A DNA stretch of 64,000 nt from an uncultured Polaribacter sp. Its GTDB lineage: Bacteria; Bacteroidota; Bacteroidia; Flavobacteriales; Flavobacteriaceae. Within the stretch, counting starts at the first letter, position 1, and each line of letters begins with the position of its first letter. The stretch is taken from the NCBI RefSeq assembly GCF_947495205.1, contig NZ_CANLXV010000009.1, forward strand, positions 65,243-129,242, written 5' to 3'. The position numbers and the translations under genes are program-made. This document shows, in pieces, positions 39,733-48,575 of the stretch. The notes below the pieces were generated by a model. It did not search any database and had not been told where the DNA came from. It worked only from the letters and a program-made list of their open reading frames with translations.

Positions 39733-39763
39733 TTATTAACATTACACCTACTTTTATTAACAA
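39733..39763 (+). promoter_or_regulatory. Pair of TTATTAACA boxes upstream of the HU gene
   Basis: Plus-strand copies at 39733-39741 and 39754-39762 (the second extends to TTATTAACAA), 21 bp start to start, same orientation. They lie 50-80 bp upstream of the -7 box, where an activator could bind. Same motif as at 2.7 kb and 47.3 kb. Confidence 0.4.
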
Positions 39764-39810
39764 AAAGGTGCTTTTTTAGGGTCTTAATTTGCCTAATCCC
39801 CCATTCCGTC

Positions 39811-39818
39811 TATATTTG
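39811..39818 (+). promoter_or_regulatory. HU promoter -7 element TATATTTG
   Basis: Consensus -7 element 53 bp before the HU ATG. The leader between is AT-rich without a visible stem. Confidence 0.55.
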
Positions 39819-39871: not shown

Positions 39872-40144
39872 ATGAACAAATCAGATTTAATCGATGCAAT
39901 GGCTGCTGACGCAGGAATTTCTAAAGTAGCAGCTAAAGCAGCTTTAGAGTCTTTTACAGATAATGTAACTTCTTCTTTAAAAAAAGGAGATAAAGTTGCT
40001 TTAGTAGGTTTTGGAACTTTTTCAGTTTCTAACAGAGCTGCAAGAAGCGGTAGAAACCCACAAACAGGAAAAACGATTCAAATTGCTGCTAAAAATGTAG
40101 CAAAATTTAAAGCTGGTGCAGGATTAAGCGATGCTGTAAACTAG
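39872..40144 (+). CDS. HU family nucleoid DNA-binding protein
   Basis: 90 residues. [18 protein letters not shown], then the beta-arm with [22 protein letters not shown] (about 45-66) and [14 protein letters not shown]. Dimeric DNA-bending architectural protein. It is separately transcribed and ends in a strong terminator. Confidence 0.97.
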
Positions 40145-45876: not shown

Positions 45877-47166
45877 CTATTTATTTAACTTAGAAACTAT
45901 TCTATTACCAGACTTTACATTTGTAACAAAATTTTCATTTTCTTTTCCTTTTATTAAATTTAAGGCTTTTATCAAAACATCATCATTTAAAATACTTTGT
46001 TGTGTAACCAGGTGTTTTGGAACAAAATTCTCTCTTGCTTCACCATTAACATGCAATATTTTATCGGTTGTAATGCTATAACCATAATTTCTATTATTAA
46101 AAGAATAATTTACAATTGAACCTGCCAATTTACCCATTTCTGAACCAACAATTGTAGCTCTTTGCATTCCATCTAAACCAATAGCCAAACCTTCTCCCAT
46201 GCTACCTGTCCATCTTCCTACTAAAACCACAACTGGCTTTTTGTATTGCTTACCTCTAGGCATTACATACTCTACCCATCTTTTAGAAATTGCTGGATTA
46301 TTTCCATATTTTTCTTTAGAGATATGTTTTTGGTAAGGCAATTCTGTTTCTATAAATCTACTCATTATTGCTCTTGCCACGTAGGTATTTCCTCCACTAA
46401 TGGTGTTTCTTAAATCTAAGATTATACCTTTAGTATCTGTAAGTTGATCTAAAGCCCTATCAAAACGTTTAATTAAATTGTTGTTACCCAAAGAATTATT
46501 TATCCTTATAATAGCAATGTCATTTTTTTTAGTGACAGAAAATAATTTATTATCTTTTCTAACTTCAATTTCATCAAGATTTAAGCTAATCCTTCTATCA
46601 TCTGCCAATTGTAATGTTAACATTCTTGCCTCATTATATCTTCCAGCAATTATTTTATTTGCTATCCACTCCCTTACTTCTGGTATTTGTTTGTTTACAC
46701 ATTGCACAGGAAAATCATCAATAGCACTATTTAAATCTTTGCCATTAAATCTTAAAACTTCTGCATTTAAAATATTTTTACCAAATTTCTCTAATTGCGA
46801 AAACCAAATGTTTTCTATACAAAATGAATTATTTCTCAACTTTACATAAACAGGAGAATGTAACCTAAAAGAGGCTTTTGTTTTGGTATTTAATAATAAA
46901 TGCCCATCGTAAAACTCGTTTAGTAAATATTCAAAAAACAAAACACTTTCTTGATTTGTTTTTACTTTAGAAATGTACTTTGAGTAGGTTTCTTTTACGC
47001 AATTAAAATCTGTTTTTTTATCATTTAAATAAATATAATTATTAGATAAATCTTGAATAATTTTACCGAAATCTTGATTCAATTTATAAGAATCTACAGT
47101 ATTACTTGTTTGACCAAATACATTTACACCAATGAAACATATAAAGAAAGTTAGTTTGATTTTCAT
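45877..47166 (-). CDS. S41 family peptidase (tail-specific-protease-like)
   Basis: 429 residues. Signal peptide FFICFIGVNVFGQ. No PDZ domain is evident between the N-terminal region (about 30-190) and the catalytic core (from about 215: IAIIRINNSLGNNN). Core motifs are GIILDLRNTISGGNTYVAR (about 250-268) and VVVLVGRWTGSMGEGLA (about 316-332), with the catalytic Ser and a later Lys candidate. Secreted serine peptidase; some S41 forms act in envelope quality control. Monocistronic, behind the repeat-bearing gap. Confidence 0.88.
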   Translation of the reverse strand: MKIKLTFFICFIGVNVFGQTSNTVDSYKLNQDFGKIIQDLSNNYIYLNDKKTDFNCVKETYSKYISKVKTNQESVLFFEYLLNEFYDGHLLLNTKTKASFRLHSPVYVKLRNNSFCIENIWFSQLEKFGKNILNAEVLRFNGKDLNSAIDDFPVQCVNKQIPEVREWIANKIIAGRYNEARMLTLQLADDRRISLNLDEIEVRKDNKLFSVTKKNDIAIIRINNSLGNNNLIKRFDRALDQLTDTKGIILDLRNTISGGNTYVARAIMSRFIETELPYQKHISKEKYGNNPAISKRWVEYVMPRGKQYKKPVVVLVGRWTGSMGEGLAIGLDGMQRATIVGSEMGKLAGSIVNYSFNNRNYGYSITTDKILHVNGEARENFVPKHLVTQQSILNDDVLIKALNLIKGKENENFVTNVKSGNRIVSKLNK

Positions 47167-47266
47167 ATTTTTTAATTTTTAGGATAAAACAGATTGTTAA
47201 AATAAGTGCTAAAATCAGTAACAATTTACAAACTTTTAATGTTACCCTAAAACGAACGAGTTTGAC

Positions 47267-47287
47267 TTATTAACAAATTGTTAATAA
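47267..47287. repeat. 21-bp perfect palindrome TTATTAACAA-A-TTGTTAATAA
   Basis: Two 10-mers inverted around a single A. A third copy (TTGTTAATAA) follows at 47301-47310, 23 bp from the second arm. Symmetry suggests a dimer-binding site. Confidence 0.6.
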
Positions 47288-47526
47288 ACAAAACATCTTG
47301 TTGTTAATAAGGTTAAAACATAAAACGAAGTTAAACACGGCCTGTAAACCAATATTTTTTACACCTTTTTCTGATATAAAACCCTAAACAATACGTATCA
47401 TATCACATAACATCAAAAAAAATAAATAACTTATAATCAGTATTTTAAATTTAAAAAAAAAGAAAAGATAAAGTAGAAATAAAAAATATTTAAATAGATA
47501 AAAACACAAAAAAGAGAATAGCGAAA

Positions 47527-47550
47527 CCTTTATTTTTCGGTAAATAAAGG
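47527..47550. other. Perfect hairpin in the 47.2-47.6 kb gap
   Basis: CCTTTATTT (47527-47535) pairs with AAATAAAGG (47542-47550) over a 6-base loop TTCGGT. On the minus strand it is about 100 bp past the hemF stop and is not followed by a clear T-run, so it is a poor terminator. Confidence 0.4.
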
Positions 47551-47645
47551 GTAGGTTTTTACAGTGAATTAGGAGTTATTAACAATTTAAAAAGAATCAA
47601 AAAAAATAATGACCACTATTAACAATCAATCTATAAGTAATGTTT

Positions 47646-48575
47646 TTATAAATTTAACCAGTTTTTAGGTTTTGCTAAAACTTGTAAAAGTTTTGCTTCT
47701 TTAGAATTTTCTTTTGGTAGATGATTATATTTCCACTGCACAACAGGTGGTAAACTCATTAAAATACTCTCTATTCTTCCGTTTGTTTTTAAACCGAACA
47801 ATGTGCCTCTATCATGCACTAAATTGAATTCTACATAACGCCCTCTTCTTACCTCTTGCCAATCTTTATGCTCTTTAGAATAAGTTAAAGATTTTCTTTT
47901 TTCTACAATAGGAGTGTAAGAATTTAAAAAGCTATTCCCAATTTCTGTTACAAAATTATATCGATCTTCAATAGAAAAATCTTCGGTCTCTTTTAAATAA
48001 TCGAAAAATAAACCACCAATTCCTCTTGCTTCATTTCTATGTGTATTCCAGAAATAGGTATCGCAAGTATCTTTAAATTTTGGATAAAATTCAGCACTAT
48101 GTTTATCACAAGCGGTTTTACATACTTTATGAAAATGTATAGCATCTTCATCAAACAAATAATAAGGCGTTAAATCTTGCCCACCACCAAACCATTGTGT
48201 TACAATGTTACCTTCCTGATCATACATTTCAAAATAACGCCAATTTGCATGTACGGTTGGCACAAACGGATTTGTTGGATGCAAGACCAAACTTAAGCCA
48301 CACGCAAAAAAGTTTCCTTCTTTTACACCAAATTGTTTGCGTAAAGCTTCTGGCAATTCTCCAAAAACTTTAGATATATTTACGCCTCCTTTCTCAAAAA
48401 CATTACCGTTTTCTATAACTCGTGTTCTACCTCCTCCTCCTTCTGCTCTTTGCCAAAGATCTTCTTTAAACTTTGCTTTGCCGTCTAATTTCTCTAGAGT
48501 TAAAGTTATCGTATCTTGTAAATTTTCTATGTACTTGTAAAATTCCTTTTTAAAACTAACTTTACCTTTCTGCAT
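47646..48575 (-). CDS. hemF: Oxygen-dependent coproporphyrinogen III oxidase
   Basis: 309 residues, the family length. Oxidative decarboxylation of coproporphyrinogen III with O2. Signatures GGGRTRVIENGNVFEKGGVN (about 46-65), HPTNPFVPTVHANWRYFE (about 97-114), WFGGGQDLTPYYLF, and GIGGLFFDYL. Last gene of the minus-strand haem set, in the protoporphyrin-dependent branch together with HemJ and HemH. It requires oxygen, consistent with an aerobe. Confidence 0.96.
   Translation of the reverse strand: MQKGKVSFKKEFYKYIENLQDTITLTLEKLDGKAKFKEDLWQRAEGGGGRTRVIENGNVFEKGGVNISKVFGELPEALRKQFGVKEGNFFACGLSLVLHPTNPFVPTVHANWRYFEMYDQEGNIVTQWFGGGQDLTPYYLFDEDAIHFHKVCKTACDKHSAEFYPKFKDTCDTYFWNTHRNEARGIGGLFFDYLKETEDFSIEDRYNFVTEIGNSFLNSYTPIVEKRKSLTYSKEHKDWQEVRRGRYVEFNLVHDRGTLFGLKTNGRIESILMSLPPVVQWKYNHLPKENSKEAKLLQVLAKPKNWLNL

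Follow-up and report, generated by a model that had tools for sequence, protein, structure and literature searches.

The window analysed here, a stretch of 64,000 nucleotides from an uncultured Polaribacter sp., contains a gap between an S41-peptidase gene and hemF in which one 9-mer, TTATTAACA, recurs in both orientations, raising the question of which protein could read these boxes and to what effect. A sequence-only reading had offered an operator array, a nucleoid-protein site or an origin-like region. Based on the clustering of the boxes, their conservation with the gene, the same word at a skew-defined origin and the residues of DnaA, it is fairly probable that the boxes are DnaA sites of the form TTATYAACA, that the gap is an extra-origin array and that DnaA sets the transcription of the S41 gene; DnaA as the protein and its action on transcription are what we infer. 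The locus comprises the following features.

45877..47166, minus strand: S41-peptidase gene (PF03572, 57.8 bits), with which the array is conserved
47167-47645: the gap, 479 bp with 21.9% GC, between the S41-peptidase gene and hemF
47267..47275, plus strand: box I, TTATTAACA, the left palindrome arm, in opposite orientation to boxes II and III and retained at all five orthologous loci
47279..47287, minus strand: box II, TTATTAACA, the right palindrome arm, pointing at the S41 gene, at -121 from its start codon
47302..47310, minus strand: box III, TTATTAACA, in the same direction as box II and 23 bp away, at -144 from the S41 start codon
47527..47550: hairpin with a perfect 9-bp stem downstream of hemF, arms CCTTTATTT (47527-47535) and AAATAAAGG (47542-47550)
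47576..47584, plus strand: distal box, TTATTAACA, in the context GTTATTAACAATTT
47616..47624, plus strand: near copy, CTATTAACA, the 9-mer most enriched upstream of rpiB outside the genus
47646..48575, minus strand: hemF, coproporphyrinogen III oxidase (PF01218), a neighbour outside the conserved unit

The cluster, the 21-bp palindrome and the hairpin are all present as they had been described. The 10-mer TTATTAACAA occurs exactly at 47267 and 47576 on the plus strand and at 47278 and 47301 on the minus strand, the near copy adds a fifth box, and 47267-47287 is palindromic at every base except the central one, while the hairpin is a probable terminator of hemF. The claim that four copies in one gap exceed chance is borne out by dinucleotide shuffles of the gap alone, which contained on average 0.057 copies of TTATTAACA and at most 2, with four or more in 0 of 20,000. 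Over the whole window the enrichment is mild (10 copies against a shuffle mean of 4.7, with 3 of 100 shuffles reaching 10), and the 3.14-Mb genome holds 131 copies against 215 of the reversed word, so that the gap represents a local concentration of a scarce word; at the genome-wide density, about 7e-5 clusters this tight would be expected per genome. Among the 100 places listed out of 131, copies no more than 50 bp apart were found only at 2706/2729, 39733/39754 and 47267-47310, all in the window. Six of the 30 genome copies whose surroundings were read are intergenic, and the genome-wide count that had been proposed as a check supports local clusters only, no general intergenic enrichment being claimed.

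Several other occurrences were recorded. At 2706-2737 of the window a further pair of minus-strand copies, with 23-bp spacing, lies between a putative methyltransferase-like gene and fdhD, and contig C3 carries four copies within 1.4 kb inside two genes. This genome has just one other palindrome with a single mismatch, TTATTAACAAATTGTTAATCA (G000:C5:133209; L121:1501-1521), which lies between two divergent genes, presumably carB and pyrG from the look of their starts. In Polaribacter sp. BM10 (G001), nine plus-strand copies fall within 34 kb (C1:2013938-2047839) among the matches listed.

Homologues of the S41 gene were sought in 58 evenly drawn genus genomes, some of them incomplete, and the 14 longer of the 28 matches were read. 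The array, consisting of the inverted pair, a distal box and usually a third box, was present in 5 of 5 genomes with an S41 orthologue at 59-65% identity (64% in G022, 65% in G002, 59% in G047 and 59.6% in Polaribacter sp. BM10), and the conservation in relatives on which the sequence-only reading had staked its case thus held. In the window and these four relatives alike, the palindrome arms are separated by 2-3 bp, and at all five loci a distal box with the surrounding sequence GTTATTAACAATTT lies 212-299 bp away. Box III, 23 bp from box II, is exact in the window, reads TTATCAACA in G022 and has one mismatch in G002 (TAATTAACA) and BM10 (TTGTTAACA); it was not found in G047, and the near copy CTATTAACA was not seen at the corresponding place in the four relatives with the array. 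All 10 S41 homologues read at no more than 51% identity lack the array, two of them having a single TTATAAACA at -36. The orthologue itself is sporadic (4 of 58 genus genomes, plus BM10), and the argument is carried by five loci only. Tight palindromes with a 2-3-bp gap occur in 5 of the 58 genus genomes, four at the S41 gene and one upstream of rpiB. In G022 the array is kept though the far-side neighbour is a gene other than hemF, which indicates that it is the S41 gene that the array accompanies. A link of the element to hemF was considered and rejected: in a comparison of 80 hemF loci, many with short flanks and 33 of them listed, BM10 alone had two or more exact TTATTAACA copies in the 3 kb downstream.

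The likeness of the box to the DnaA box, from which an origin had been suspected in the gap, proved to be the right clue at the wrong place. The relevant region lies on contig C1.

C1 280,998-281,426, minus strand: rpiB, diverging from rnr
C1 281,427-282,674: rpiB-rnr gap with six TTAT(T/C/A)AACA boxes, in the spellings TTATTAACA, TTATCAACA and TTATAAACA, and no dnaA nearby
C1 282,675-284,894, plus strand: rnr

The 800 bp upstream of rpiB were compared in 30 loci of the genus (28 readable; L205 and L210, without a readable start, were omitted) and 29 of named genomes. The 28 genus loci contained 51 TTATTAACA, 61 TTATCAACA and 50 TTATAAACA, and 22 named loci outside the genus contained 32, 15 and 15, respectively; 0 of 300 shuffles reached any of these counts in either set. 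At least one of the three spellings was found in 27 of 29 named Flavobacteriaceae, and none within 800 bp in Kordia and Gelidibacter pelagius. When no word was given in advance, CTATTAACA, GTTATTAAC, TTATCAACA and TTATTAACA were among the top five 9-mers outside the genus. The E. coli word TTATCCACA was also in excess there (5 against 0.16 expected in 22 loci), as expected of an origin, and was absent from the 28 genus loci. G019 has five TTATTAACA copies upstream of rpiB, two forming a tight palindrome; rnr is the divergent neighbour of rpiB in some but not every locus.

The cumulative GC skew of C1 (400 kb) reaches its minimum at 276-286 kb, and the third-position (GC3) lead-lag contrast peaks for turning points at 271-291 kb, with 0 of 300 permutations as high. 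As a counter-sign, the fraction of coding sequence on the leading strand, taken by itself, peaks for a turning point at 216 kb (0.644, against 0.621 at 276 kb). Coarse skew from 20 samples of 20 kb in each of four finished genomes agreed only roughly: the lowest interval contained rpiB in the gene-corrected curve of BM10 and the raw curve of G025 and was about 0.1-0.3 Mb away from it in G025 (gene-corrected), G022 (raw) and G002 (gene-corrected), the gene-corrected curve of G022 being flat and the raw curve of G002 having no clear minimum. Taken from box content and skew, the oriC of this genome is probably the rpiB-rnr gap upstream of rpiB on C1. mnmG starts at 295,047 on C1, 12.4 kb from the rnr end of that gap, and two papers predict Flavobacteriaceae oriC near mnmG with GC skew as support (PMC12843772, PMC11278836; a figure legend in the latter exchanges the oriC and ter labels). 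These predictions are consistent with the same place, but name mnmG rather than rpiB-rnr, and they differ from the S41-hemF gap. The S41-hemF gap does have a box cluster beside AT-rich DNA, which is insufficient alone; it was rejected as oriC, given the turning point on C1 and a cumulative skew of the window that falls through the gap without a turn. The absence of dnaA, which had been held against an origin, is no valid argument in this phylum, because oriC is commonly far from dnaA in Bacteroidetes, according to PMC4755523; in this genome contig C5 carries dnaA and contig C1 carries rpiB.

The same boxes recur in front of the gene for the nucleoid protein HU, which lies in the window.

39733..39741, plus strand: HU promoter box 1, TTATTAACA, at -139
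39754..39762, plus strand: HU promoter box 2, TTATTAACA, at -118, 21 bp from box 1, family-conserved
39788..39818, plus strand: promoter-like match TTTG-N19-TATATTTG of the HU gene, in the promoter form of Bacteroidetes
39872..40144, plus strand: HU gene, 90 aa (PF00216, 113 bits)

A direct box pair was found in 51 of the 58 genus genomes. It occurred at 62 places, the reversed pattern at 11, and 24 of the 30 loci read were in front of HU. Among the 29 named Flavobacteriaceae genomes, 25 have an exact TTATYAACA pair before HU; a single box is present in three Flavobacterium genomes, and an exact one is lacking in Pustulibacterium. The two boxes are offset by 20 bp except in Polaribacter, Tenacibaculum and Flavicella, where the offset is 21 bp. 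Downstream, 53 of the 54 HU loci read contain the promoter-like match (certain genomes being counted twice; for G071, L367 and L356 are the first and second of two tandem genes, and both rows represent the same promoter), and in loci with boxes the second box starts 34-35 bp before the first promoter element. T and C replace each other at box position 5 not only at the origin but also at HU and in box III of the S41 array. The suggestion of a nucleoid-protein site in the gap received no direct support, though the HU gene is preceded by the same boxes. As a separate observation, G004 carries the direct pair TTATTAACAACTTTATTAACA with a 12-bp offset at C2:75175 (L154; the word is also in G003 and G046), 291 bp before a gene that presumably, from its look, is purH.

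TTATYAACA is most likely the Flavobacteriaceae DnaA box, because it is concentrated at the skew-defined origin, canonical pairs are not in excess, DnaA carries two alanines at base-reading positions and there is an independent precedent in mycoplasmas; TTATAAACA and CTATTAACA probably also serve as DnaA boxes. Canonical TTATNCACA boxes paired in direct orientation at other places in the genus genomes were considered and rejected, with 6 matches against 9 for the reversed control in the 58 genomes. The genome's own DnaA (TIGR00362, 518 bits; L397, a weak second match, was not counted as DnaA) reads SLA...RDHATV for SLP...RDHTTV when set against domain IV of E. coli DnaA (1j1v), and alanine occupies the positions of E. 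coli P423 and T435 in this protein and in 29 of 29 relatives. PMC5043019 lists residues 399, 423, 432-435 and 438-439 as base-reading. The two alanines may account for the A instead of C at position 6, by which the family box fails to match TTATNCACA. The identical 9-mer TTATTAACA has been proposed, on position and likeness, as a DnaA box of Mycoplasma hominis, M. mobile and M. arthritidis (PMC2751442), and TT(T/A)TCAACA is a motif proposed for mollicutes (PMC3322544). The mycoplasma boxes lie upstream of dnaA, whereas the Flavobacteriaceae clusters lie upstream of rpiB, HU and the S41 gene. Only one of 30 regions upstream of dnaA (L111, L368-L396; most of them 350 bp long, two of them 321 and 91 bp) has a box, and autoregulation of dnaA by these boxes was rejected; with 29 of 30 regions free of boxes, classic DnaA autoregulation seems absent in Flavobacteriaceae.

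If DnaA is the reader, its putative binding to the gap array would probably set the transcription of the adjacent S41-peptidase gene, and the operator array suggested from the sequence would stand in outline, with DnaA now as the candidate regulator. Boxes III and II share one direction, with about two helical turns between them, and point at the S41 gene from -144 and -121; the palindrome of inverted box I and box II could hold two DnaA molecules face to face. The S41 pair at -144/-121 resembles the window's HU pair at -139/-118, a likeness that favours transcription control. The HU pair is placed where an upstream activator touching RNA polymerase would sit, so that DnaA may activate HU. As in a promoter region, the boxes are conserved in place before one gene at 5 of 5 orthologous loci; a loose promoter pattern was matched before the S41 gene in one of these loci, and no promoter was recognised in the other four. 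DnaA-regulated promoters in E. coli, according to PMC4585315, include dnaA and mioC, which likewise have DnaA boxes in or upstream of the promoter, but the gene is a different one, and the S41 promoter and the effect on it are only putative here.

Another regulator, with sites also upstream of rpiB and HU, could read the boxes instead of DnaA, which would agree with a dnaA promoter without boxes and with DnaA binding that is only predicted. It is nevertheless unlikely, because most sites of this unknown protein would then have to lie at the skew-defined origin, leaving DnaA without recognisable clusters of its own.

Quite unlikely, too, is that the array acts as a DARS-like element, on whose palindrome DnaA would meet head to head and exchange its nucleotide to time initiation, the S41 gene being a mere neighbour. 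E. coli DARS1 and DARS2 also have three boxes, with box I opposed to boxes II and III (PMC5742627 and PMC8682772), and are noncoding and away from oriC; the gap offers an extra distal box within 0.4 kb, and in the finished genomes of BM10, G002 and G022 the array lies mid-arm, at fractions of 0.53, 0.65 and 0.60 along the arm that runs from rpiB to the opposite point. The MG1655 DARS cores, in the bioD-uvrB and rppH-mutH intervals, show the same box order but have offsets of 14 and 12 bp, unlike the 12/23 bp of the window (11 or 12/23 in relatives, G047 having no third box). The tight palindrome was found only in the few genus genomes noted above, and a replication-control element should not follow one sporadic gene. 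Because its spacing differs and it follows such a gene, the array was not filed as a DARS; it might conceivably still work like one, although this is less likely than a role as promoter region. There is a slim chance that everything holds jointly: a TTATYAACA-reading DnaA would be a conserved HU regulator that couples the supply of the nucleoid protein to replication, and the gap array would be both a DARS-like element that recycles DnaA or times initiation and the promoter region for a secreted protease gene.

A passive sink that titrates DnaA with no effect on the gene is very improbable: four to five near-consensus boxes stand together in a genome where the word is scarce, but the array is conserved with and oriented to one gene, and is missing where the gene is missing according to the pair searches. 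E. coli datA is similarly a noncoding DnaA-box cluster away from oriC, yet PMC4585315 describes it as close to oriC, and the array is more than half an arm away in the three finished genomes. Chance repetition in AT-rich DNA, with which the mild window-wide enrichment would be compatible, is contradicted by the gap shuffles and by conservation in four other genomes and deserves hardly any weight.

A promoter region under putative DnaA control is the best reading of the gap. Flavobacterial origin prediction used the E. coli word TTATCCACA (PMC8994065), and this word is the default in Ori-Finder 2022 (PMC10225481). In the literature within reach, which excluded DoriC entries and most subscription journals, the word TTATTAACA was nowhere given as a Flavobacteriaceae DnaA box, and no description of such boxes at HU was found; the word itself is not new, being already a putative DnaA box in mycoplasmas (PMC2751442). 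Taken together, the proposed TTATYAACA box of the family, the oriC gap defined here and the conserved HU box pair make replication control in Bacteroidota directly testable, and they raise the possibility that HU is regulated by DnaA throughout a family.
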